Positions 43,014-57,842 of a stretch of DNA of 64,000 nt are shown one piece after another (position 1 is the first letter of the stretch; every line of letters begins with the position of its first letter). The DNA lies in the NCBI RefSeq assembly GCF_019091085.1, contig NZ_JAGXJY010000012.1:1-64000 (forward strand). The letters are read 5' to 3'. This DNA comes from Mesorhizobium sp. GbtcB19 (lineage in GTDB: Bacteria; Pseudomonadota; Alphaproteobacteria; Rhizobiales; Rhizobiaceae). The notes under the pieces are model-generated. The model was not told the DNA's origin. It did not search any database and saw only the letters and a list, made by a program, of their open reading frames with translations. The position numbers and the translations under genes were made by a program.

Positions 43014-46000
43014 GTGATGGGGACAGGATTTGAGACGATGGCGGCGGCCTGCGGCCGCGCCTGGCTGACCACCGTTTCGCGTATTGCGCTGAACGCTTCT
43101 AACAGCCCGGCGCGGCCGCAGCACGGGAGCGCCGGCCCAGGCGGCCGCCTGCGGGCGGCATGGCCCTTGCGTCTCCTGTGCATCTTGGCGGCGGCCATCT
43201 GCCTTGGAGCGGAAGCATCCGCGCAGACTTTCACCGGCACGCAAACGACGAACGGGCCTTTTTCGAGCGGAGACCAATATTTCTACGACACCAGCACGTT
43301 CGACGCGAACGCCGCCTACGCCGCCGTTGGCGGGCGCCAATTCTTCAACAACAGCAGCTCACTGAACGCCTCCGCGGGCAATGCGATCCGCGGAGGGCTG
43401 CAGGTTTTCTACGCCAGCAGCTCGTTGAACGCCTCCGCCGCCAACGCGGTCAACGGCGGAAACCAGCAGTTCACGGGCTTCACCATACTGAACGCCACGG
43501 TGGCGGATGCCGTCAGCGGAGGCGCCCAGACCTTTGTCAACAGCAGTTGGCTGAATGCAACAGCCGGCAACGCTGTCAGCGGCGGACACCAGATATTCTG
43601 GGCCACCAGTCAATTGAATGCTTCGGCCACCAATGCCGTCAGTGGGGGAATCCAGGATTTCTACAACAACAGCGTGCTGAATTCCTATGTCAGCAATGCC
43701 GTCAGCGGAGGTGTGCAGACTTTCAACGACGCCAGCGTGCTGAATGCTGTCACTGTCAATGCCGTCAGCGGCGGAACGCAGAACTTCGACAACGCCAGTG
43801 CGTTGAACGCCTCCGGCTCCAGCGCCATCACCGGCGGCACGCAAACATTCTCAGGCGCCAGCGCCTTGAATGCTTCCAATTTCAATGCCGTCAACGGAGG
43901 ATCGCAGACTTTCCATGATACCAGCGCGCTGAACGCGTCCCAGGCCACTGCCGTCAGCGGCGGGACGCAGAGCTTCTACGACACAAGCACGCTGAACGCC
44001 TCTACGGCCAACGCCGTCAGTGATGGATCGCAGCTCTTCTACGGCACCAGTTCGCTGAACGCTTCCGCCGCCAACGCCGTCGCCGGCGGAACCCAAACCT
44101 TTTTCAACAGCAGCGCCTTGAAAGCTTCCGTCGCCAATGCCCTCAGCGGTGGAACGCAGCTCTTCTACGGCACCAGCGTCCTGACTGCCTCCGCGGCGAA
44201 TGCCGTCAGCGGCGGAACGCAAACCTTCTCCGACACCAGCGCCTTGAACGCCTCCGTCGGCAATGCCCTGAGCGGCGGGACGCAGAGTTTTTACGGCAGC
44301 AGCATGTTGAACGCCTCCGCCGCCAATGCCGTCAGCGGGGGAGTCCAGGGCTTCAACGACAGCAGCGCGCTGAACGCCTCCGTTGCAAACGCCGTCAGCG
44401 GAGGCGGGCAGGGCTTCCTTGGTTCCAGTGCTCTGAACGCCTCCGCCGCGAATGCCGTCAGCGGAGGGTTCCAGATCTTCTACAATTCCAGCACGCTGAA
44501 TGCCACTGTCGGCAACGCCGTCAGCGGCGGCGACCAGAGGTTCCAGGGCGACAGCCGATTGAATGCTTCCGCCGCAAATGCCGTCAGCGGCGGAGCGCAG
44601 GATTTCTTCAACAGCAGCAGGCTGGATGCCTCGGCCGCCAACGCCGTCAGCGGCGGGGCGCAGTTTTTCAGGGGCACCACGACACTCAACGCCTCCGCCG
44701 CCAATGCCGTCAGCGGCGGGACGCAGAGTTTCTACCAGGCAAGCAAGCTGAACGTGCTCGCCGACAATGCCCTCACCCGCGACGTCGGGATCGATTTCTA
44801 CAGCACGATCGGCGGCCCGGGCGGCACCTTGCGGCTGAACGGCCACAGCTCGGTGGTCGGCGCCATCGACAGCCAGAACGGGGGAGCGGGTATCGTCGAG
44901 AATGGCGCAGCCACGAACAGCATCCTCACCGTCGATAGCTCGACCGCCGGCGCCTCGTCGTTTTCCGGGGTCATACGCGACGGGGGCACGGGCAGCCTGG
45001 CGCTGGTCAAGGAAGGAGCCGGAATCCTTACCCTGAGCGGCGCGAACACCTATACCGGGCCCACCACGGTGAACGGCGGCGAATTGCGGATCAATAGCTC
45101 GATCGCGGGCGCGGCGACGGTCAACGCCGGCGGCACGCTCAGCGGCGCCGGCTCGATCGCCAGCCTGCTCGTCACTTCCGGCGGCACGATTTCGGGCGCG
45201 GCCGGCTCGACGCTGACGATGAGCAGCCTGGCGTTGGACGCCGGCTCGAACGTCGACGTCGCGCTGGGCGCGCCCTCGACGACGGCGCTCTTCAACGTCA
45301 CCGGCAACCTGACGCTTGCCGGCACGCTCAACGTGACCGATGCGGGCGGCTTCGGCGCCGGCATCTATCGCCTGTTCGACTATGGCGGATCGCTCACCGA
45401 CAACGGTCTCGCGATCGGTTCCACGCCGGCCGGCGTGACCGCGTCCAATCTCTTCGTGCAGACTTCCGTCGCCAACCAGATCAATCTCGTTTCCACGCAG
45501 GGCGTCGAGCTCAGCTTCTGGGATGGCGGCAACTCCGCGCTGCACGACAATGGCGCGGTCGATGGCGGGTCAGGTATCTGGCGCGCCGACGGGCGCAACT
45601 GGACGCAGGCCGATGGCGCGGTGAACGGGCCCTACCAGCCCAATCCGACCTTTGCCGTGTTCCAGAATGCCGGCGGCGTGGTGACGGTGGACGCCTCGGC
45701 CGGCGCGATCGGCGTGACCAAGATGCAGTTCGCCGTCGACGGCTACCGGATCGAAGGCGATTCGGTAGCCCTGCAGGGCTCCGGCGGATCGACCACGATC
45801 CGTGTCGGCGACGGCACGGCGGCTGGCGCCGGCATGACCGCCACGATCGCTTCGGCGCTGACCGGCAACAGCCGGTTGGTGAAGAGCGATCTCGGCACGC
45901 TGGTCCTGACCGGGACCAACAGCTATTCCGGGGGCACGACGATCAGCGCCGGCACGCTGCGCGGATCGGCTGCCGGTTTCGGCAGCGGCGCGATCCTCGA

Positions 46001-47807
46001 CAACGCGGCCCTCGTCGTCGATCAGCAAACCGATGCCGTCTTCGCCAACGTCATCGACGGCAGCGGCTCCTTCACCAAGACCGGCGCCGGAGCGCTTACC
46101 CTCACGGGGATCAGCGGGTTGATCGGCCCGACGACGATCGGGGCCGGCGCACTGGCGGTCGATGGATCGCTCGCCAATTCCACCGTCACGATTGCCGCTG
46201 GCGCGGCACTTCGCGGCGGCGGCACGGTCGGCGGCATCGTCGCGCAAAGCGGCGGCACGATCGCGCCCGGCAGCGGTGGCATCGGCACCCTCTCGGTGGA
46301 GGGCAATCTGTCCATGTCGGCCGGCTCGCATCTGGCCGCCGACATCGACGGAACCGGCGCTTCCGATCGCATCGCCGTGTCGGGCACGGCCGACATCACC
46401 GGCGCGGCGCTCGACGTGTCGGCGCAGGGCCTGAAGATCGGACGCTACACCATCATGACGACCGGTAGCGGCCTCACCGGCTCCTTCGGCTCCGTCACCG
46501 GGATCGGTGCGATTTCGACCTTCCTTGGGGTCACCGACAGCTACGACACCTACAACGCCTATCTCGATGTGCTGCAGCTGCGCGATCTCGCCGATGCGGG
46601 TGCGACGCGCAACCAGAAGGCTGCCGCGGCAGGCATCCAGAGCCTCGCGGGCAGCGATCCGTTCTTCACCGGCAACCCGCTTTACAACGCCATCCTGGCG
46701 CTGCCGACGGATGCGGCCGCGCGCAATGCCTTCGGCCTGGTCTCGGGCGAGGCGCATGCTTCGGCGAAGACCGCCCTGATCGAGGACGGCCGGTTCATTC
46801 AGGACGCCGCCACCGACCGCATCCGCGCCGCCTTCGGCGCCGTTGGGGCGCCGCAAGCACCGGTCCTGGCTTTTGCCGAACCGGCCGATGGCAGGCCGGG
46901 CACTGCAGATGCCGCGCTTGCCTCGCTCGATCAGGAGACGACGGCGGGCATCGCCGCGCCCGCGACCACGGATCGTTTCGCACTGTGGGGGCAGGGCTTC
47001 GGCGGCTGGGGCAATACCGGCGGCGACGGCAATGCCGCGCGCCTGTCGCATTCGACCGGCGGCGTGCTCGTCGGCATCGACGCGCCGGCCTTCGACACCT
47101 GGCGCTTCGGCATGATGGCGGGCTACAGCCGCACCAGCTTCGAGGTGAAGGATCACGCCTCCTCGGGCGCTAGCGACAACTACCATCTCGGTGTCTATGG
47201 CGGCACCGACTGGAATGTCTTGGGAGGCGATCTCGGCTTCCGGACCGGCGCGTCCTATAGCTGGCACGAGATTTCGACCGGCCGTTCCGTCGTCCTTCCC
47301 GGCTTCAGCGACAGTCTGAAGGCGGAGTATCACGCCGGAACGGCGCAGGTCTTCGGCGAGCTCGGCTATGGCATTCGCGCCGGCGGCTTAGGGTTCGAGC
47401 CCTTCGCCAATCTCGCCTATGTGAACCTGAGGTCCGGCGCGTTTGCGGAGCAGGGTGGAGCCGCGGCGCTGCAAGGCGCCGGGAGCAACAGCGCCGTCTC
47501 CTTCACCACGCTCGGCCTGCATGCCTCGACCGACGTTGCCCTTGGCGATACTGCCGCGACGGTTCGCGGCACGCTCGGCTGGCGCCACGCTTTCGGCGAC
47601 ACGACGCCGCTGTCGACTCTCGCCCTGGCCGGCGGCTCGCCCTTCACGGTGGCAGGCGTGCCGATCGCCCGGAACGCTTTGGTGCTCGATGTCGGCGTGG
47701 ACGTCGCCATCGCCAGGAATGCGACGCTCGGCATCTCCTATGGCGGGCAATTCGCCGGCAGTGCCATCGACCAGAGCGTCAAGGGCAATCTCGCGGTGAG
47801 ATTTTAA
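43014..47807 (+). CDS. autotransporter with 23 x 21-residue passenger repeats
   Basis: 1597 residues from GTG 43014 (ATG 43017 and 43038 are alternatives). An extended signal region ends near residue 70 (hydrophobic PLRLLCILAAAICLG, cut after EASA). Then 23 repeats of 21 residues (AVSGGTQxFYxxSxLNASAAN type) form a beta-solenoid passenger similar to AIDA-I repeats. PATR-like motifs follow (GAGILTLSGANTYTGPTTV; GTLVLTGTNSYSGGTTI). The C-terminal about 285 residues form the beta-barrel, ending in Phe (NLAVRF). A surface adhesin role is likely. Confidence 0.94.
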   Translation: MMGTGFETMAAACGRAWLTTVSRIALNASNSPARPQHGSAGPGGRLRAAWPLRLLCILAAAICLGAEASAQTFTGTQTTNGPFSSGDQYFYDTSTFDANAAYAAVGGRQFFNNSSSLNASAGNAIRGGLQVFYASSSLNASAANAVNGGNQQFTGFTILNATVADAVSGGAQTFVNSSWLNATAGNAVSGGHQIFWATSQLNASATNAVSGGIQDFYNNSVLNSYVSNAVSGGVQTFNDASVLNAVTVNAVSGGTQNFDNASALNASGSSAITGGTQTFSGASALNASNFNAVNGGSQTFHDTSALNASQATAVSGGTQSFYDTSTLNASTANAVSDGSQLFYGTSSLNASAANAVAGGTQTFFNSSALKASVANALSGGTQLFYGTSVLTASAANAVSGGTQTFSDTSALNASVGNALSGGTQSFYGSSMLNASAANAVSGGVQGFNDSSALNASVANAVSGGGQGFLGSSALNASAANAVSGGFQIFYNSSTLNATVGNAVSGGDQRFQGDSRLNASAANAVSGGAQDFFNSSRLDASAANAVSGGAQFFRGTTTLNASAANAVSGGTQSFYQASKLNVLADNALTRDVGIDFYSTIGGPGGTLRLNGHSSVVGAIDSQNGGAGIVENGAATNSILTVDSSTAGASSFSGVIRDGGTGSLALVKEGAGILTLSGANTYTGPTTVNGGELRINSSIAGAATVNAGGTLSGAGSIASLLVTSGGTISGAAGSTLTMSSLALDAGSNVDVALGAPSTTALFNVTGNLTLAGTLNVTDAGGFGAGIYRLFDYGGSLTDNGLAIGSTPAGVTASNLFVQTSVANQINLVSTQGVELSFWDGGNSALHDNGAVDGGSGIWRADGRNWTQADGAVNGPYQPNPTFAVFQNAGGVVTVDASAGAIGVTKMQFAVDGYRIEGDSVALQGSGGSTTIRVGDGTAAGAGMTATIASALTGNSRLVKSDLGTLVLTGTNSYSGGTTISAGTLRGSAAGFGSGAILDNAALVVDQQTDAVFANVIDGSGSFTKTGAGALTLTGISGLIGPTTIGAGALAVDGSLANSTVTIAAGAALRGGGTVGGIVAQSGGTIAPGSGGIGTLSVEGNLSMSAGSHLAADIDGTGASDRIAVSGTADITGAALDVSAQGLKIGRYTIMTTGSGLTGSFGSVTGIGAISTFLGVTDSYDTYNAYLDVLQLRDLADAGATRNQKAAAAGIQSLAGSDPFFTGNPLYNAILALPTDAAARNAFGLVSGEAHASAKTALIEDGRFIQDAATDRIRAAFGAVGAPQAPVLAFAEPADGRPGTADAALASLDQETTAGIAAPATTDRFALWGQGFGGWGNTGGDGNAARLSHSTGGVLVGIDAPAFDTWRFGMMAGYSRTSFEVKDHASSGASDNYHLGVYGGTDWNVLGGDLGFRTGASYSWHEISTGRSVVLPGFSDSLKAEYHAGTAQVFGELGYGIRAGGLGFEPFANLAYVNLRSGAFAEQGGAAALQGAGSNSAVSFTTLGLHASTDVALGDTAATVRGTLGWRHAFGDTTPLSTLALAGGSPFTVAGVPIARNALVLDVGVDVAIARNATLGISYGGQFAGSAIDQSVKGNLAVRF
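43320..44768 (+). repeat. 23 tandem 63-bp units inside the autotransporter gene
   Basis: Units run from 43320 without insertion or deletion: 23 x 63 = 1449 bp ends at 44768, and the next codon breaks the pattern. The units are diverged at DNA level but keep the GG-x-Q-x-F and LNAS positions. This is in-frame coding repetition. Confidence 0.9.
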
Positions 47808-49028: not shown

Positions 49029-49213
49029 GGCACTGCTCCTGCTAAGGGACCTGGCGGCTCAAGTGCGGTAAAGGCAATGAAGGTCTGGCGCGATCGATAT
49101 CTCGGATAATGCACTATTCGGCCCGCGCGTGAAGCCGTCCTGCCGCCCGGAATGAAAGCCCCACCACCAGCGCCAAGCCGGCGCCCCTTCATCGCGCCCG
49201 AAACTCATCGTTG

Positions 49214-49238
49214 ACATATATTCACAATAGATATATGT
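49214..49238. promoter_or_regulatory. AT-rich inverted repeat upstream of the NUDIX regulator
   Basis: ACATATAT (49214-49221) and ATATATGT (49231-49238), perfect arms with a 9-bp centre, 29 bp before the ATG. It stands out in a GC-rich genome and has the size of an NrtR-type operator. It probably controls the three-gene unit at 49267-51915. Confidence 0.55.
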
Positions 49239-49266
49239 ATCTCGCATATTAGCAAGGACGCGTTCG

Positions 49267-50007
49267 ATGAACGAGACAGATTTCCTCAAGGAATACGACC
49301 CGGGCGCCTTCCAGCGTCCATCGGTGGCGGTCGACCTTGTCCTGCTCGGCATCCGCGCCGGCCGGCCGGCAGTGCTGCTGGTCAGGCGCGCCCAGCTTCC
49401 GCATGCCGGCCGCTGGGCGCTGCCGGGCGGCTTTGTCGGCATCGACGAGTCCCTCGATGCGGCCGCCGCGCGCGTGCTGCGCGAAAAGGCCGGCATGGCC
49501 GAGGCGCATCTCGAACAGCTCTACACGTTCGGTGCGGTGGATCGCGATCCGCGCATGCGCATCATCAGCGTCGCCTATCTGGCGCTGCTTACCGAACAGG
49601 CCTTCGATGCGGCACTCGGCGCGATGCCGGCTCTGCTGCCGGCCGCGATCCATGTGCCCTGGGCCGGCGAGACCGGGGGGCCTGTCGATGTGCTCGCGCC
49701 GGAAGGCGAAAAACTGGCGCTCGCCTTCGACCATGCCGCCATCCTGGCGATGGCGATGCTCAGGCTGCGCGGCAAGCTCGACTATTCCGATGTCGCCTTC
49801 GCGCTGCTGCCCGAGCTCTTCACGCTGCGCCAGCTGCAGGATGTGCACGAGGCCGTCCTCGGCACCGCGCTCAACAAGCCGGCCTTTCGCCGGCGGCAGC
49901 TCGACAAGGGTTGGCTGGCGGCGACCGGCGCCTATGAGGCTGGCGCCGCCTTCCGTCCGGCCGAACTTTATCGCTTTCAACGTCCCCAAGGCCTTCCAGC
50001 ATACTGA
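49267..50007 (+). CDS. NrtR-like NUDIX-domain transcriptional regulator
   Basis: 246 residues. The N-terminal NUDIX domain (about 18-150) has GGFVGIDESLDAAAARVLREKAGM, where the catalytic REUXEE core is degenerate (R-V-L-R-E-K), arguing for binding and not hydrolysis. The C-terminal winged helix (about 160-235) has DHAAILAMAMLRLRGKLDY, LPELFTLRQLQDVHEAVLG and KPAFRRRQL, as in NrtR, the NAD-metabolism repressor that senses ADP-ribose or NAD-related ligands. It is first of a tight operon with SPFH and NAD-kinase-like genes. Confidence 0.88.
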   Translation: MNETDFLKEYDPGAFQRPSVAVDLVLLGIRAGRPAVLLVRRAQLPHAGRWALPGGFVGIDESLDAAAARVLREKAGMAEAHLEQLYTFGAVDRDPRMRIISVAYLALLTEQAFDAALGAMPALLPAAIHVPWAGETGGPVDVLAPEGEKLALAFDHAAILAMAMLRLRGKLDYSDVAFALLPELFTLRQLQDVHEAVLGTALNKPAFRRRQLDKGWLAATGAYEAGAAFRPAELYRFQRPQGLPAY

Positions 50008-50024
50008 TTGAGGGAGAACCCATC

Positions 50025-51008
50025 ATGGCCACCATCCGCAGTCTAGGCTTCGTCGCCCAGCTTCGCAGCGAGGCGAGCAGCCACGTCATCCGCTATCGCA
50101 ACGGTCGCACCAAGCAGAGCGGCCGCGGGCTGGTCTTCTGGTTCGTGCCCGAGACCGCCAGCATCGCCGAACTGCCGATGGACGACCGCGAGATGACCTT
50201 GTTCGTCAAGGGCCGCAGCCAGGATTTCCAGACCGTCGCCGTGCAGGGCACGATCGGCTGGCACGTCGTCGACCCGGCGCGGCTGGCCGAGCGCGTTGAT
50301 TTCAGCATCGACCTTGCCACCGGGAAGCTGCGCGGTGAGCCGATCGAAAAGATCCAGGCGCGCATCGCCGGCATCGCCAACCAGGCGGTGCAGCAATATC
50401 TTGGACAGGCGCCCGTGCGCGCTTTGCTCGACGCCGGACCCGCGCCCTTGCGCGAACGGCTGCAGGCGCTGGTCGCCGCCGATCCGGCGCTGACCGACAT
50501 CGGCGTCGCCGCCGTGGCGGTCAGGCTCACCAACCTGACGCCGACCAGCGAGCTCGAGCGTGCCCTGCAGACGCCGACCTTCGAGGCGCTGCAGCAGAAG
50601 GCCGACGAAGCGACCTTCCAGCGCCGGGCCTTGGCCGTCGAGAAGGAGCGCGCCATCGCCGAGAACGAGCTGGCGAACAAGACCGAGCTGGCGCGGCGCG
50701 AGAAGCTGCTCATCGCCGAGGAGGCCGAGAACGCCCGCAATCGCGCCACCGGCGCCGCCGAAGCGCAGCAGATCGAAGCCGGGGCCGAGGCCGAGCGCAT
50801 CCGCGCCATCGAAGGCGCCAGGGCGGAGGCCGAAAGGCAGCACATCGCCATCTACCGCGACCTGCCGCCCGCGATCCTGCTCGGCCTTGCCGCGCAGCAG
50901 TTTGCCGGCAAGCTGGACAAGATCGAGCACGTCAACGTCACGCCCGACCTGCTTGCGACCTTGCTTGGCGAGTTCCGCAAGGGCCTGGCGGTGATCGAGG
51001 CGCGGTGA
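50025..51008 (+). CDS. SPFH/band-7 domain protein without membrane anchor
   Basis: 327 residues, 17 bp after the NUDIX gene. The SPFH fold covers about 20-175 (YRNGRTKQSGRGLVFWFVP; LFVKGRSQDFQTVAVQGTIG). A long charged coiled coil follows (about 185-275, rich in Ala/Glu/Arg: EKERAIAENELANKTELARR), then a C-terminal domain RDLPPAILLGLAAQQFAGKL. Band-7 proteins usually oligomerise at membranes; this one has no N-terminal hydrophobic helix, so it may assemble in the cytosol or attach indirectly. Confidence 0.9.
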   Translation: MATIRSLGFVAQLRSEASSHVIRYRNGRTKQSGRGLVFWFVPETASIAELPMDDREMTLFVKGRSQDFQTVAVQGTIGWHVVDPARLAERVDFSIDLATGKLRGEPIEKIQARIAGIANQAVQQYLGQAPVRALLDAGPAPLRERLQALVAADPALTDIGVAAVAVRLTNLTPTSELERALQTPTFEALQQKADEATFQRRALAVEKERAIAENELANKTELARREKLLIAEEAENARNRATGAAEAQQIEAGAEAERIRAIEGARAEAERQHIAIYRDLPPAILLGLAAQQFAGKLDKIEHVNVTPDLLATLLGEFRKGLAVIEAR

Positions 51009-51018
51009 GGCAACGCAT

Positions 51019-51915
51019 ATGGCCGCGAACCGACCCCGCGCGGTCTTCGTGACGCGCGAGACCGACTATGAACTGCTGATCGCGCATCATGCGACGCGCG
51101 GTCAGGCCCGCTTCTTCCTCGAGACGCGCGGCCAGCGGCTGGAAGACGTAGAAGCCCGGCACGACCATTTCCAGGCCGTGCTCGGCACGGCGCGTGCCGC
51201 GGTGCCGGCCGACTGGCGGCAAACCCTGGTGACGCGCGCCGACCTCAACCGCTTCCTGTTTGCGCCCGACGACGTCGTTGTCGCCGTCGGGCAGGACGGC
51301 CTGGTCGCCAACGTCGCCAAATATCTGAACGGCCAGCCGGTGCTGGGCGTCAATCCGGCGCCGGATCTCTATGACGGCGTCCTGGTGCGGATCGGCGTCG
51401 GCAGGCTGGCGAAACTGCTTGCCGCCAGCGCCGCCAGCGATGTCCAGATGGAATTGCGCACCATGGTCCAGGCCGAGCTCGGCGAAGGCGAGACGCTTCT
51501 TGCGCTCAACGAAATCTTCGTCGGCCATCGCAGCCACCAGTCGGCCCGCTATCGCATCGAGGCGGAAGGCGGGACGGAGGACCATTCCTCCAGCGGCCTC
51601 ATCGTCGCCTCCGGCACCGGCGCGACCGGCTGGGCGCGCTCGATCATGGATGCGACGCATCTGGAGCTGTCGCTCGGGCGCGAGGAGCATGCGGTCGGCT
51701 TCTGGGTGCGCGAGCCTTTTCCGAGCATCGCCACCGCCACGAAACTGCGGGCGGGAAAGATCACGCAAAAACCGCTCTTCATCACCTCGCGCATGAATGA
51801 GGGCGGCGTCATCTTCGCCGACGGCATCGAACAGGATTTTATCGCCTTCGATTGGGGCCGGCAGGTGCGGCTGTCGCCGGCGTCGAGGGTGCTGCGCCTG
51901 GTCGTCGATCGGTAA
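51019..51915 (+). CDS. NAD-kinase-like protein with altered active-site motif
   Basis: 298 residues, 10 bp after the SPFH gene. It resembles ATP-NAD kinase: the GGDGT position reads VGQDGLVAN, the NE motif is LNEIFVGHRS, and the second conserved site is SSGLIVASGTGATGW in place of DGLxxxTPTGSTAY. An N-terminal extension of about 90 residues (AVFVTRETDYELLIAHHATR) is not normal NadK. The departure from GGDGT questions canonical activity. With the NrtR-like regulator in front, a role in NAD-type nucleotide sensing or modification is inferred. Confidence 0.8.
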   Translation: MAANRPRAVFVTRETDYELLIAHHATRGQARFFLETRGQRLEDVEARHDHFQAVLGTARAAVPADWRQTLVTRADLNRFLFAPDDVVVAVGQDGLVANVAKYLNGQPVLGVNPAPDLYDGVLVRIGVGRLAKLLAASAASDVQMELRTMVQAELGEGETLLALNEIFVGHRSHQSARYRIEAEGGTEDHSSSGLIVASGTGATGWARSIMDATHLELSLGREEHAVGFWVREPFPSIATATKLRAGKITQKPLFITSRMNEGGVIFADGIEQDFIAFDWGRQVRLSPASRVLRLVVDR

Positions 51916-52020: not shown

Positions 52021-52122
52021 TAGAGCAATTCCAGGAAAAGTGTGAGCGGTTTTCCGTCCGGAATTGCGTAAAAACAAAGGGATAGAGCATTTCGCCGTTT
52101 CCGTGAAACGATGAACGCTCTA
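52021..52122. repeat. two-hairpin intergenic repeat, copy G
   Basis: GCAATTCC/GGAATTGC first hairpin with ggaaaagtgtgagcggttttcc core; second hairpin TAGAGC...GCTCTA around cgccgtttccgtgaaacg. Almost identical to copies B and D. It lies between the NAD-kinase-like gene and the convergent isochorismatase gene. Confidence 0.8.
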
Positions 52123-52767
52123 GCGACCCGATCCGGCATGCCCGCCGAGAAGCTGCATTTCCCAGGCGAAGGCGACGCCGCTGGCGCCGCCATGTTCGGC
52201 GAGCACACCCGCGAGCGCGGCCGCGGTCTTTTCCCTTGCCCAGTCACGCTGCCATTCGGCCATGACGGCCAGCCAGGTGATCGGCACCGCACCTGCGGCG
52301 GCCATGCGTCGCACGGCCATGTCATGGGCTTCCGCCGAAACGCCGCCGGAGGCGTCGGTAACCACAAAGACGTCGTAGCCCTCGCCGAGCGCTTGGATCG
52401 TCGGCATGGCAAGGCATATCTCGGTCCACAGCGCAGCCAGCACGAGTTGTTTGCGGCCACTCTTCCTGACGATGCTGGTGACGTTCGGGTCTTCCCAAGT
52501 GTTGATGAAAGTGCGGTTGATCGGCTTCTGCTCTGGAAAGACGTCCTGGAGCCCCTTGATCAGATAACCGCCGCGCTCCTCGATCACTGTGGTCAGCACG
52601 GTCGGCACATTGAAGACCTTCGCGGTCTTGGCCAAGCCGATGACGTTGTTGACGATCATCGTCGGCTCGTGGCTGTTGAGATTGGTGAACTGGTATGGCT
52701 GATGGTCGATCAGCACGAGGATGCTGTCTTCGGGGCGAAGCAAGGCGTCAAGACCTGTCTTGGGCAT
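52120..52767 (-). CDS. isochorismatase-family hydrolase (YcaC-like)
   Basis: 215 residues from ATG 52767, AAGGAG 5 bp upstream. Catalytic elements of the cysteine hydrolase fold: Asp in VLIDHQPYQFTNLNSHE, Lys in the RKSGRKQLVLAALWTEICL segment and the Cys in TEICLAMP. It ends GVAFAWEMQLLGGHAGSGR, close to YcaC-type proteins of uncertain substrate. It is likely co-transcribed after the SnoaL-like gene and controlled by the divergent LysR. Confidence 0.9.
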   Translation of the reverse strand: MPKTGLDALLRPEDSILVLIDHQPYQFTNLNSHEPTMIVNNVIGLAKTAKVFNVPTVLTTVIEERGGYLIKGLQDVFPEQKPINRTFINTWEDPNVTSIVRKSGRKQLVLAALWTEICLAMPTIQALGEGYDVFVVTDASGGVSAEAHDMAVRRMAAAGAVPITWLAVMAEWQRDWAREKTAAALAGVLAEHGGASGVAFAWEMQLLGGHAGSGR

Positions 52768-54276: not shown

Positions 54277-54831
54277 TCAAGCCCGGGCGGTTCCGGCCTG
54301 AGATTTACGCGCATTCCCATTCGCGCCGTCGAGCAGCGCGATCAATCCCTTGAGGATCTCGATCGGCGGCGGCGGGCATCCCGGAATGTGCAGGTCGACC
54401 GGCACCACGTCCGACACGCCGCCGACGACCGCATAGCTGCCGGCAAAGCAGCCGCCGTCCTTGGCGCAGTCGCCAAGCGCGACCACCCATTTCGGATTGG
54501 GCGTCGCGTCAAAGGTCCGCTTCAGCGCCTCGCGCATGTTCTTGGTGACCGGCCCGGTGACCAAAAGCACGTCGGCATGGCGCGGCGAGGCGACGAAGTG
54601 GAAGCCGAAGCGCTCGATGTCGTAGAAGGCGTTGTTGAGCGCATGCATCTCGAGCTCGCATCCATTGCAGGAACCGGCATCGACCGCGCGGATCGACAGG
54701 CTCCGGCCGAGCTTCCTGCGCGCCATGCCGTCGAGCGCGCGCGCCAGCTCGTCGACCGCCGCATCGCTGACCTGCGGCGCGCGTTCGGTCAAGGGCGGGC
54801 GGATCAGGCTTTCGAAGAGGAGTTTTCGCAT
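54277..54831 (-). CDS. hyfI: HyfI/NuoB-like iron-sulfur subunit
   Basis: 184 residues from ATG 54831. Complex I NuoB/hydrogenase small subunit family: the cluster cysteines are C55 and C58 in AGSCNGCELEMHAL, C122 in GDCAKDGG (C128 nearby) and C152 in IPGCPPPP. So the proximal [4Fe-4S] cluster site seems intact. It is the last gene of the Hyf-like operon, 21 bp after the large subunit. The symbol indicates homology; the complex is probably of the Ehr type. Confidence 0.9.
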   Translation of the reverse strand: MRKLLFESLIRPPLTERAPQVSDAAVDELARALDGMARRKLGRSLSIRAVDAGSCNGCELEMHALNNAFYDIERFGFHFVASPRHADVLLVTGPVTKNMREALKRTFDATPNPKWVVALGDCAKDGGCFAGSYAVVGGVSDVVPVDLHIPGCPPPPIEILKGLIALLDGANGNARKSQAGTARA

Positions 54832-54852
54832 GACGGTGTGCCTTCGACCAGC

Positions 54853-56385
54853 TTAGAGATCGTGGCCGGAATAGGAGCAGTTGAACGATTTGTTGCAGAG
54901 CGGGAAGTCGGCGACGATGTTGCCCTCGATCGCCGCTTCCAGCAGCGGCCACTGGAACCATGACGGGTCGCGCAGGTGGCAGCGCTCGATCGTGCCGTCC
55001 TCGCCGATGCGCAGCCAGGCGAGTATGTCGCCGCGAAAACCCTCGACCAGTGCCATGCCTTCGCGCGGCGCGGCACTACCCGCCACGGCGAGGTCGATGT
55101 GGATCGGGCCGGCGGGCAGCCGCCCCAGAATCTGTTCGACCAGCGACAGGCTCTGCTCGACCTCCCGCACGCGGATCCAGACGCGCGCGTTGACATCGCC
55201 CTCCTGCAGCACCGGCACATCGAAGGTCAACTGATCGTAGGGCGCATAGCCCGGCGTGCGCCGCGCATCGAAATCGCGGCCCGAGGCGCGTCCGACATAG
55301 CCGCCGGCGGCATATTGCCGGGCAAGCTCGACCTTGAGCCGCCCCGTCGCCACCGTGCGGTCCTGCAGCGAGGCTGTGTTGTCGTAGAGCTCGACCAGAT
55401 GCGGGAAGCGCCGCCTGATCTCCGCGACCAGCGACCGGATGGCATCTGCGCCAGCTTCGTTCAGATCGCTTGCCGTGCCGCCGGGCAGGATGCGGTCACG
55501 CATCAGGCGATGGCCAAAGGCCGCGTCGGCGGCGCGCAGCGCGCGTTCGCGCAGCACGCCGCAATGCGCGTGCATGATCGCGAAAGCGGCGTCGTTGCAG
55601 ATGGCGCCGATGTCGCCGAGGTGATTGGCAAGGCGCTCCAGCTCCGCCATCAGCGCGCGCAGCCATGTCGCGCGCGGCGGTGGTGTGACGCCGAGCGCCG
55701 CCTCCACCGCGCGGGCGAAGGCCAGCGAATAGGCGACCGTGCTGTCGCCGGAGGTCCTGCCCGCCAGCTTCGCGGCACGATCGATCGCCGCTCCCGCCAT
55801 CAGGCCCTCGATGCCCTTGTGCACATAGCCCAGCCGCTCTTCCAGCCGCACCACCGTTTCGCCGCCGGCCGTGAAGCGGAAATGTCCCGGCTCGATGATG
55901 CCGGCATGCACCGGCCCGACCGCGATCTGGTGGAGGCTTTCGCCTTCGGCCACCAGGAACCGGTAGGAGGCGGCGGCTGGCGGCCCGCCGGGCCGCGCCG
56001 CCAGCGGGTGGCTGACGTCCCATTGGCCATGGTCGAGCCAGCGCCGTGTATCGGGAAGGCCTTGCGGCGCCAGCCCGAAAAGATCCGCCGCGGCGCGTTC
56101 CAATCGCAGAGCCGGCGGATGATGCTGGCCGACCGACGGGTAGCGGCCGCCGCGGCAATCCAGGCTGATGACGCCGATGTCCAGCGCCTCGTCCAGAAGC
56201 GCCATGTGAACCTTGTCCGGCTCCCCCCACAGGCCGAGCAGGTTCCAGCGGCCGTTGGCGAGCTGCTCGACGGCGAGGTTCCAGAGCTTCGGGGCCACCA
56301 CGGCGCGCGGCCAGGGTGCGTGATGCTCGACCTGACGGTCGGCTTCGATGAGATCGGCGAGCGCTGGCATGTTCTTCCGGATCAT
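54853..56385 (-). CDS. hyfG: HyfG/NuoCD-like large subunit lacking NiFe ligands
   Basis: About 510 residues from ATG 56385 (GTG 56394 would overlap the previous stop). An N-terminal NuoC-like part (about 1-150) is fused to a NuoD/hydrogenase large-subunit-like part. Where NiFe hydrogenases have RxCGxC, this reads GRTSGDST (about 209-216), and the C-terminal DPCxxC is replaced by FNCSYSGHDL. The metal centre is therefore almost certainly absent, as in Ehr complexes and complex I. It keeps the VGPVHAGIIEPGHFRF quinone-site-like segment. Confidence 0.92.
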   Translation of the reverse strand: MIRKNMPALADLIEADRQVEHHAPWPRAVVAPKLWNLAVEQLANGRWNLLGLWGEPDKVHMALLDEALDIGVISLDCRGGRYPSVGQHHPPALRLERAAADLFGLAPQGLPDTRRWLDHGQWDVSHPLAARPGGPPAAASYRFLVAEGESLHQIAVGPVHAGIIEPGHFRFTAGGETVVRLEERLGYVHKGIEGLMAGAAIDRAAKLAGRTSGDSTVAYSLAFARAVEAALGVTPPPRATWLRALMAELERLANHLGDIGAICNDAAFAIMHAHCGVLRERALRAADAAFGHRLMRDRILPGGTASDLNEAGADAIRSLVAEIRRRFPHLVELYDNTASLQDRTVATGRLKVELARQYAAGGYVGRASGRDFDARRTPGYAPYDQLTFDVPVLQEGDVNARVWIRVREVEQSLSLVEQILGRLPAGPIHIDLAVAGSAAPREGMALVEGFRGDILAWLRIGEDGTIERCHLRDPSWFQWPLLEAAIEGNIVADFPLCNKSFNCSYSGHDL

Positions 56386-56390
56386 GCGCG

Positions 56391-57842
56391 TCACCCCAGG
56401 ATGCCGGCGACGTGCTGGAACCACGCCACCAGCGGCGCCGGCAGGTAGATGCCGGCCGCAAACACCAGAGCGAGGTGCGAATACATCGGCACGTATGACG
56501 CCTCGACCGGGGCCATGCCGCCGCGCGGATCGCCGAAGGCGAGCCCGGTCAGCCGCAAGAGCAGCGCGCCGAAGGCGATCAGCAGCCCGAACACCAGCGG
56601 GATCGCCAGCCACGGATATCTGGCGAAGGTCGAGCTGACGACCAGGAACTCGCTCATGAAGATGCCGAGCGGCGGCAGGCCGGCGATGGCGACGACGCCG
56701 ATCACCAGCGCCCAGCCAAGCCCGGGATGGCTTTCGGTCAGGCCCCTGATCTCGGAGATCTTCTGCGTGCCCTTGACCTGCGCGATGTGGCCGACGGCGA
56801 AGAAGATCGCTGACTTGGTCAGGCTGTGCATGACCATGTGCAGCAGGCCGGCGAAGTTGGCGAGCGGCCCGCCCATGCCGAAGGCAAAGACGATGATGCC
56901 CATATGCTCGATCGAGGAATAGGCGAACAGGCGTTTGATGTCGCGGCGCCGGTAGAGCATGAAGGCGGCGAAGATCAGTGAAGTCAGCCCCATCGTGACC
57001 ATCAGCGGCCCGGGCCCGATCGCCTGCGGGCTCGCCGCGAGCAGCAGTTTGAAGCGCAGCACGGCGTAAAGCGCGACGTTGAGCAGCAGGCCCGACAGCA
57101 CCGCCGAGATCGGCGTCGGACCTTCGGCGTGCGCGTCGGGCAGCCAGGCATGCAAGGGGGCAAGGCCGACCTTGGTGCCGTAGCCAAGTAGCAGGAAGAT
57201 GAAGGCGACGCTGAGGAGCGCGGGGTCGAAATGCGCCGCCTTCTCGATCAGCACCGACCAGACCATGGCGTTGGTGCCCTCGCCGACGACCGGCTGCGCG
57301 GCCATGTAGACCAGGATGGTGCCGAACAAGGCGAGCGCGATGCCGACGCTGCCGAGGATGAAGTATTTCCAGGCCGCCTCCAGCGCCTCATGCGTGCGGT
57401 AGATGCCGACCATCAGCACGGTGGTGAGCGTGGCGAGTTCCACCGCGACCCACATCAGCCCGATATTGTTCGACACGAAGGCGAGGTTCATGCCGAACAT
57501 CATGATCTGGTACATGGCGTGGTAGAACCGCAGGTTCGGCGCGGTCAGCCGCCCGGTCTCCAGCTCATGCGCGATGTAGGAGGCGCTGAACACGCTGGTG
57601 GTGAAGCCGACGAATGTGTTGAGCACGATGAAGACGATATTGAGGTCGTCGACGATGAGATATTGCCCCGGCGCCGGCCGCTCGGTGACGAACAGCGACA
57701 GCGCCGCGAGCAAGGTGAGCAGGCTGGCGATGACGTTCACCATGGCCGTCATCTTGTAGTTCGGCAACGCCGCCAGGATGGCTGCGGCGGCGGCCGGGAT
57801 GAAAAGGATCGCGGCCACGGCGTCGAAGGAAAACCCGCTCAC
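56391..57842 (-). CDS. hyfF: HyfF-like NuoN/Mrp-type proton antiporter subunit
   Basis: 483 residues from GTG 57842 (GTGA overlap with hyfE). About 14 membrane helices. The antiporter signature includes WVAVELATLTTVLMVGIYR (conserved Glu), GTKVGLAPLHAWLPDAHAEG (helix-7/8 Lys-His) and IKRLFAYSSIEHMG. It would carry protons or sodium ions in an energy-converting complex. Confidence 0.92.
   Translation of the reverse strand: MSGFSFDAVAAILFIPAAAAAILAALPNYKMTAMVNVIASLLTLLAALSLFVTERPAPGQYLIVDDLNIVFIVLNTFVGFTTSVFSASYIAHELETGRLTAPNLRFYHAMYQIMMFGMNLAFVSNNIGLMWVAVELATLTTVLMVGIYRTHEALEAAWKYFILGSVGIALALFGTILVYMAAQPVVGEGTNAMVWSVLIEKAAHFDPALLSVAFIFLLLGYGTKVGLAPLHAWLPDAHAEGPTPISAVLSGLLLNVALYAVLRFKLLLAASPQAIGPGPLMVTMGLTSLIFAAFMLYRRRDIKRLFAYSSIEHMGIIVFAFGMGGPLANFAGLLHMVMHSLTKSAIFFAVGHIAQVKGTQKISEIRGLTESHPGLGWALVIGVVAIAGLPPLGIFMSEFLVVSSTFARYPWLAIPLVFGLLIAFGALLLRLTGLAFGDPRGGMAPVEASYVPMYSHLALVFAAGIYLPAPLVAWFQHVAGILG

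Follow-up and report, generated by a model that had tools for sequence, protein, structure and literature searches.

A widespread accessory operon of an NrtR-type regulator, an SPFH protein and an NADK2-like protein, with a likely NAD and ADP-ribose link

This study examined a three-gene operon of Mesorhizobium sp. GbtcB19, located on the first 64,000 nucleotides of contig NZ_JAGXJY010000012.1 (assembly GCF_019091085.1); this whole stretch is called the window, and its coordinates are used below. The genes encode an NrtR-type transcription factor, an SPFH protein and a protein resembling NAD kinases. As a sequence-only reading had proposed, the gaps between them are 17 and 10 bp; all three lie on the plus strand, and each open reading frame (ORF) continues in frame to its stop. 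The features of the locus are as follows.

49211-49252, plus strand: putative promoter/operator region (TTGACA at 49211-49216, a 17-bp spacer and TATGTA at 49234-49239, overlapping a conserved element)
49267-50007, plus strand: NrtR-type transcription factor with a degenerate NUDIX domain and a winged helix, 246 amino acids (from Pfam and PDB relatives)
50025-51008, plus strand: anchor-less SPFH/Band-7 protein with a long coiled coil, 327 amino acids (from Pfam Band_7, an AlphaFold2 model, Foldseek and hydropathy)
51019-51915, plus strand: NADK2-like protein with GQDGL, 298 amino acids (from an AlphaFold2 model, the human NADK2 match and the family profile)

A purine-rich stretch, read by eye, precedes each of the three starts. 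The triad is a conserved unit of three families and more than a chance arrangement. Because the same genome holds a separate NAD kinase and a separate NadQ-like gene, the operon is an addition to the housekeeping functions. The former is an ordinary NAD kinase by its motif, scoring 23.5 bits in Pfam, just under the cut-off. The latter encodes the second NrtR_WHD protein of the genome (L114, G000:C68:97520-97702) and is followed by genes reading as nadA, nadB and nadC.

The conservation of the unit was assessed over 97 loci, 40 from a contig scan together with eight of 68 plasmid records and 57 from genome samples; all were picked via the kinase-like gene, and the set cannot reveal SPFH or regulator copies living apart. 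The three families co-occur across these genomes, with the SPFH gene directly upstream of the kinase-like gene on the same strand in 94 of the 97 loci, separated by -5 to 44 bp in 86 of those 94. A NUDIX-winged-helix gene is present in 79 loci (44 upstream and co-directional as in the window, 34 divergent, one farther off). Two loci, L033 and L132, begin at a contig edge; among the 95 clear of such edges, L136 alone has no adjacent SPFH gene. Additionally, pairwise identities are strongly correlated between the kinase-like and SPFH proteins (0.98, 65 loci) and between each of these and the regulator (0.94 and 0.94, 54 loci). Wider spacing of 398 and 778 bp separates the SPFH and kinase-like genes at L099 and L100. 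At L141 (1853-3385) the start of an SPFH protein is joined in frame to the start of a kinase-like protein whose end lies in a second short ORF; this looks like a decayed copy and was not used as evidence for a fusion, although the locus is still counted among the 94.

The operon is widespread but accessory. The contig scan with the third protein gave 32 loci in Mesorhizobium, Methylobacterium and relatives, Aurantimonadaceae, sphingomonads and Rhodospirillales, and the 68 plasmid records include Rhizobium, Roseomonas, Streptomyces, Kitasatospora, Cupriavidus, Methylomonas, Providencia and Treponema, among others. The named hosts therefore belong to the Alpha-, Beta- and Gammaproteobacteria, the Streptomycetaceae and Treponema, and these loci in distant bacteria rule out a gene order unique to the strain. 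In the genome samples, positives numbered 2 of 289 in the class sample (single-sequence query), 12 of 398, as full-length members, in the phylum sample by profile (15 matches, three of them ordinary NAD kinases), 21 of 297 in the order sample by profile (25 matches, four of them ordinary NAD kinases), 13 of 369 in the class of genome G464 (threshold 1e-30) and 20 of 349 in the family of G464 (f181). The ordinary NAD kinases of the order and phylum samples scored under 45 bits and were dropped. The operon is regarded as accessory because only about 1–7% of the sampled genomes are positive; eight other genomes of the window's genus in the phylum sample lack it, yet the contig scan returned 12 Mesorhizobium loci.

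No further partner recurring over all lineages was found at 67 loci, where no other flanking family exceeds four of 24 kinase-identity groups and those present in three or four groups read as generic (SDR, LysR, transporter parts). A phage origin was also considered and set aside: none of 50,697 phage records matches the operon, PHROGs has no match for the SPFH or kinase-like protein, and the sole relative in viral contigs lies at a contig edge. That contig (L115:1-2831, IMG/VR) starts inside a kinase-like gene, continues with NADAR and ADP-ribosylglycohydrolase genes, is closely similar to L086 and is probably host DNA flanking a prophage. No DNA-level match to the Providencia copy was found in E. 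coli, a comparison that is blind to distant homologues.

The third protein falls below the thresholds of the standard NAD kinase models, matching Pfam NAD_kinase (PF01513) at E 0.0068 and 17.1 bits (cut-off 25.5) and the NCBIfam NAD kinase models at 31.2 bits at most, against cut-offs of 211 and more. Its best solved relatives are structures of human NADK2, and its AlphaFold2 model (pLDDT 84, pTM 0.81) aligns with human NADK2 7r4l over 280 residues (Z 25.7, rmsd 2.7, 24% identity). The family profile likewise reaches NADK2 at 5.2e-21, and the NAD kinases that follow do no better than 8e-7. Judged by its modelled fold, this bacterial protein is related to human mitochondrial NADK2. It shares the fold of the human enzyme (7r4j-7r4m, 7n29) over nearly the whole length, and the N-terminal region, the NE motif, SSG..GTG..W and REP align. 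It differs in having GQDG where the human protein has GGDG, in an identity of 24% in the structural alignment, in being bacterial and in having an SPFH gene beside it in 94 of 97 loci. Public records carry the labels 'sugar kinase', ATP-NAD kinase of the PpnK type and hypothetical; the first was rejected, as the fold matches NAD kinases throughout the best 50 matches, in which 2an1 is named only 'putative kinase'.

The sequence-only reading had pointed to an altered GGDGT motif, and the window protein indeed carries GQDGL. In NAD kinases this loop holds the ATP phosphates, and its Asp is catalytic. Loss of the T was discarded as a special trait: the ordinary NAD kinases L057 and L058 have GGDGT, four of the window's order (L076-L079) have GGDGL and the one in the window's own genome has GGDGF. 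Since these enzymes of the order and of the genome itself already lack the T, the diagnostic change is at the second loop position. GQDG occurs in 95 of 96 complete homologues and GPDG in one, L138 (521-1501, minus strand), the sole kinase-like protein with GPDGL in place of GQDGL. The loop Asp (67), the Asn (67), the residue next to it (Glu in 51, Asp in 16), SSG (67) and the Trp (67) are all kept among 67 aligned sequences, a set that predates 30 further loci; the GQDG and NUDIX-box counts were repeated on the fuller set. The kinase-like proteins themselves diverge down to about 40% identity. The GQDGL loop suggests an unusual phosphoryl donor or substrate; judged from the motif, the missing Gly could mean either that the donor is unusual or that activity has been lost.

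The second protein matches Pfam Band_7 (PF01145) at E 4e-11 and 43.7 bits (cut-off 23.6). Its AlphaFold2 model, a monomer with pLDDT 73 and pTM 0.42, has a helix of about 90 residues after the SPFH domain, and Foldseek aligns it with, among others, an SPFH microdomain entry (7vhq) and chains of HflK/C, prohibitin, stomatin and vault. The SPFH domain and long C-terminal helix are shared with the HflK/C, prohibitin, stomatin, flotillin and major vault protein families. A membrane anchor is usual in SPFH/Band-7 proteins, though not universal. In contrast, none is visible by 19-residue mean hydropathy in the window protein or its 94 homologues, upholding the proposed anchor-less character: the window protein peaks at 1.67 (residue 148), with 0.79 in its first 60 residues, and the homologues reach at most 1.97, with 1.86 (L089) within the first 60 residues. 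The homologue sequences begin where the profile begins; the 27 in-frame extensions checked upstream of that point reach at most 1.47.

The NrtR-type identity of the first protein was confirmed, with both domains above their Pfam cut-offs (NrtR_WHD PF21906, 2.3e-20, 72.9 bits, cut-off 27; NUDIX PF00293, 2.5e-12, 47.4 bits, cut-off 21.1). Its best solved relatives are AraR 5bs6 (1e-34) and 3gz5 (1.7e-30), an NrtR whose entry is titled MutT/nudix family protein. The NUDIX box of the window protein is without the catalytic acids, hence degenerate as first described. The canonical pattern is found in 11 of 79 homologues (6 of 55 before loci were added), namely L040, L090, L097, L104, L105, L106, L130, L131, L134, L139 and L140, whose regulators are possibly enzyme and repressor both. 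According to PMC4666351, Arg98 and Tyr10 of SoNrtR contact ADP-ribose, and AraR has Gly in place of Arg98. The regulator here shares both equivalents with the ADP-ribose-responsive SoNrtR: among 55 sequences, the Arg98 equivalent is present in all 54 that are readable (the truncated L015 has a gap) and 36 of the 39 readable at the other position have the Tyr10 equivalent (His in two, Ser in one; 16 gaps). Its domains, and in most members its degenerate box, are those of the NrtR/NdnR/AraR family, but it stands with an SPFH and an NADK2-like gene and scores 161.8 bits against NCBI's model of the ADPR-responsive repressor (NF050029), under the cut-off of 400.

Upstream of the regulator, the nearest relatives have a similar sequence that overlaps the promoter hexamers of the window, where a generic promoter scan reports another, overlapping hexamer pair. 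Of the upstream regions that are co-directional, 39 of 45 contain TTGAC[A/T], a count made without a control. Among 75 upstream or intergenic regions, 19 contain a palindrome with at least 12 of its 14 pairs matched, compared with 0.8% of resampled controls; several loci of the G464 family have common arms of the TTGTAC..TACAAC type, L016 and L027 have long arms overlapping promoter-like hexamers, and L027 and L171 are among those with strong palindromes. The operator-like element of the window has a single copy in its own genome (one match at up to three mismatches; none for the reversed control), and with this one site there is no evidence in that genome for a wider regulon. No RNA element was found at gathering score.

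The proteins and, where present, the neighbouring genes converge on a common theme. The family of G464 is probably the Burkholderiaceae, an assignment suggested by the fact that the best plasmid match of its locus L086 is Cupriavidus (72.8% over 55%). The gene families sought by phmmer beside the operon were NADAR, ADP-ribosylglycohydrolase, DUF4291, KptA, Macro, PncB, PncA-like, NadE and NadM-NUDIX. Within f181, 13 of 20 loci carry such ADP-ribose-removal or NAD-salvage genes, against none of 18 control windows from the same genomes (the contigs of two genomes were too short); a stricter count leaves out loci with PncA only, because PncA was assigned from marginal isochorismatase hits of 23 to 35 bits, with no such hit at L164, and gives 11 of 20 against none of 18. 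The corresponding tail probabilities are 1.4e-5 and 1.4e-4, figures that overstate independence, since these 20 genomes are related to one another. The f181 genomes differ in the gene order surrounding the core, a pattern that favours repeated association.

Over all 97 loci, KptA was found at seven, NADAR at six, PncB at six, ADP-ribosylglycohydrolase at five (L086, L168, L169, L175 and L176), DUF4291, NadE and NadM-NUDIX at four each and Macro at two. At L086 the operon continues into DUF4291, NADAR and ADP-ribosylglycohydrolase genes (Pfam 4.8e-62, 2.2e-50 and 2.3e-79); in L106, from the window's order, NADAR sits between the regulator and SPFH genes, and in the sphingomonad loci L018 and L030 PncB immediately follows the kinase-like gene. 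In the members tested, Pfam upheld the KptA, Macro, NAD synthase, NUDIX plus cytidylyltransferase-like and nicotinate phosphoribosyltransferase domains. In a separate Pfam scan of 95 flanking ORFs (93 from a list of 217 and two added by hand), the NADAR count of two is not independent, as the hand-added ORFs include the already known one of L086. NADAR occurs in six of the 20 f181 genomes, with five of those six genes at the operon locus, and among 22 genomes all five ADP-ribosylglycohydrolases above 250 bits are at the operon locus. Downstream of the Rhizobium lentis operon (L042:6964-9136) there are a DUF4304 gene and a RES-domain gene; RES toxins degrade NAD.

Among the closest known systems are the ARG-centred ADP-ribose systems, which, in PMC9503650, carry NUDIX or WYL regulators. 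Shared with them are a NUDIX-type regulator and, in some loci here, ADP-ribosylglycohydrolase, NADAR and Macro genes; the difference is that 81 of our 97 loci are without any of the NAD or ADP-ribose families sought. The terms NADK, NAD kinase, band-7, SPFH and prohibitin are absent from the main text of PMC9503650, and no description of the SPFH-kinase pair was found in the open-licence papers searched, including the parts read of PMC7159879, PMC4666351, PMC9503650 and PMC11833690. The claim that no described system combines the three families therefore held within those papers, where no named system turned up, and the gene order is not specific to the strain. The 2012 work of de Souza and Aravind on NAD-utilising pathways might describe part of the operon system.

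Combined, the results partly support the earlier reading overall. Its NAD linkage is borne out by the NADK2 fold, by the ADP-ribose-contacting Arg kept in the regulator and by the NAD-salvage and ADP-ribose genes that neighbour the operon in f181, two sphingomonads and a further genome of the window's order. The link to NAD and ADP-ribose is well supported in f181 and likely in general; families, motifs and, where present, neighbours converge on it. We propose that this is an accessory operon for NAD and ADP-ribose homeostasis, responsive to ADP-ribose, whose SPFH assembly and NADK2-like enzyme would be produced during NAD breakdown; we give this proposal about even chances of being right. The NrtR-type protein would sit on a site that overlaps the promoter and keep the operon repressed until its NUDIX pocket binds ADP-ribose or a related nucleotide from NAD breakdown, whereupon it would let go. 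The operon would then yield an SPFH oligomer in the cytosol together with an NADK2-like enzyme working on or with that oligomer. The most likely substrate of this enzyme would be NAD(H), a related adenosine dinucleotide or ADP-ribose, with the adenosine 2'-hydroxyl as the site of action, and the NADP pool may thereby be restored or rerouted while NAD is consumed. Loci of f181 can additionally hold genes for NAD salvage (PncB, PncA-like, NadE, NadM-NUDIX) and for ADP-ribose (NADAR, ADP-ribosylglycohydrolase, Macro, KptA). A more specific version, in which a soluble SPFH cage or filament houses the NADK2-like enzyme with its altered loop and makes or captures 2'-phosphorylated NAD or ADP-ribose species, with the ADP-ribose-sensing repressor switching it on while NAD is destroyed, seems improbable as it stands.

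Several observations weigh against the homeostasis proposal. Outside the 20 f181 loci only three of 77 have such neighbours (L018, L030, L106), the Cupriavidus plasmid locus L039 has none, and the flanks of the window hold none beyond an opposite-strand isochorismatase-family gene. ORF and Pfam scans found no ADP-ribosylglycohydrolase at the window's locus, the single one of its genome being on another contig, and in the 22 genomes 12 of 17 ADP-ribosylglycohydrolase rows lie elsewhere. The regulator is absent from the stretch read in 15 of the 94 SPFH-kinase loci, including Streptomyces and Kitasatospora, and L136 is truly without SPFH. As a palindrome the window's own element has 9 of 14 pairs, no better than chance (control mean 9.2), and most of the 75 upstream regions likewise lack a better-than-chance palindrome. 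The global confidence of the SPFH model is low. Finally, kinase activity may be lost, because the GGDG loop is altered in all 96 members.

This last point leads to a rival explanation, in which the third protein is a pseudo-kinase that binds NAD(P) or ADP-ribose without phosphorylating and serves as the sensing or gating subunit of a sequestering or signalling SPFH cage or filament. The second loop position is never Gly (Q in 95 and P in one of 96) while the loop Asp, the Asn and the Glu/Asp are nonetheless kept, only L136 of the 95 uncut loci lacks an adjacent SPFH gene, and the SPFH model resembles cage-forming families; all of this would suit such a subunit. The retention of NADK2 stretches including SSG..GTG..W and REP is more than a mere binder would seem to need, and we regard the pseudo-kinase as somewhat unlikely. 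A plain accessory NAD kinase that raises NADP(H) in oxidative stress, with SPFH as an incidental neighbour, would account for the NADK fold and the kept substrate-side residues. It sits poorly with an SPFH gene held directly upstream in 94 of 97 loci despite the low identity among the kinase-like proteins, and with a phosphate loop unlike that of the ordinary NAD kinases examined, making it very unlikely.

The sequence-only reading also considered a role in defence, which found no support here: neither the kinase-like nor the SPFH protein of the window has a PADLOC match (library of 2023). In its most explicit form, the operon would be induced by released ADP-ribose and would counter ADP-ribosylating or NAD-depleting toxins and phages as a repair or immunity module, as proposed for ARG-centred systems with NUDIX regulators in PMC9503650. 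The patchy distribution is consistent with this, and so is the presence in f181 of NADAR, ADP-ribosylglycohydrolase, Macro and KptA genes next to the operon, as are PADLOC matches among 95 flanking proteins to PD-T4-2_B (three) and PDC-M42C (two), with single matches to AbiU, AriA, mad3, mad8 and others. These flanking matches are mostly single, however, and GajB helicase models make up 16 of the 25 flanking families shown, each with a single member, so that they probably represent one protein. In PADLOC-DB 2.0.0 (2023) the 22 kinase-like proteins of set A1 are without a match, as are the two window proteins, and the NUDIX domain has only a 0.015 match. ADP-ribosylglycohydrolase and NADAR are confined to five and six of the 97 loci, and the phage and viral searches gave nothing beyond the contig-edge relative. 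A defence role is possible, with no test here supporting it, and the immunity module as formulated appears unlikely.

Other genes of the window were noted in passing. The isochorismatase-family hydrolase adjoining the operon (52120-52767, minus strand, 84.2 bits) shows no sign of being a nicotinamidase; nicotinamidases are members of the large isochorismatase family. Read by eye, a very long ORF at 43014-47807 (plus strand) has degenerate repeats of the NASAANAVSGG type and an autotransporter-like C-terminus, and ORFs at 54277-57842 (minus strand) resemble subunits of the hydrogenase-4/formate-hydrogenlyase type.

Overall, three known protein families are joined in one gene unit whose core spans three phyla. 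If the proposed homeostasis operon is correct, it would represent a dedicated bacterial response to NAD breakdown and would offer a bacterial relative of human NADK2 that is tractable and whose phosphate loop is naturally changed; should the enzyme indeed be housed in an SPFH cage, its family would be a bacterial counterpart of the animal mitochondrial NADK2. Additionally, the operon would provide a soluble SPFH protein with a likely client, so that the role of SPFH assemblies could be tested in a simple system.

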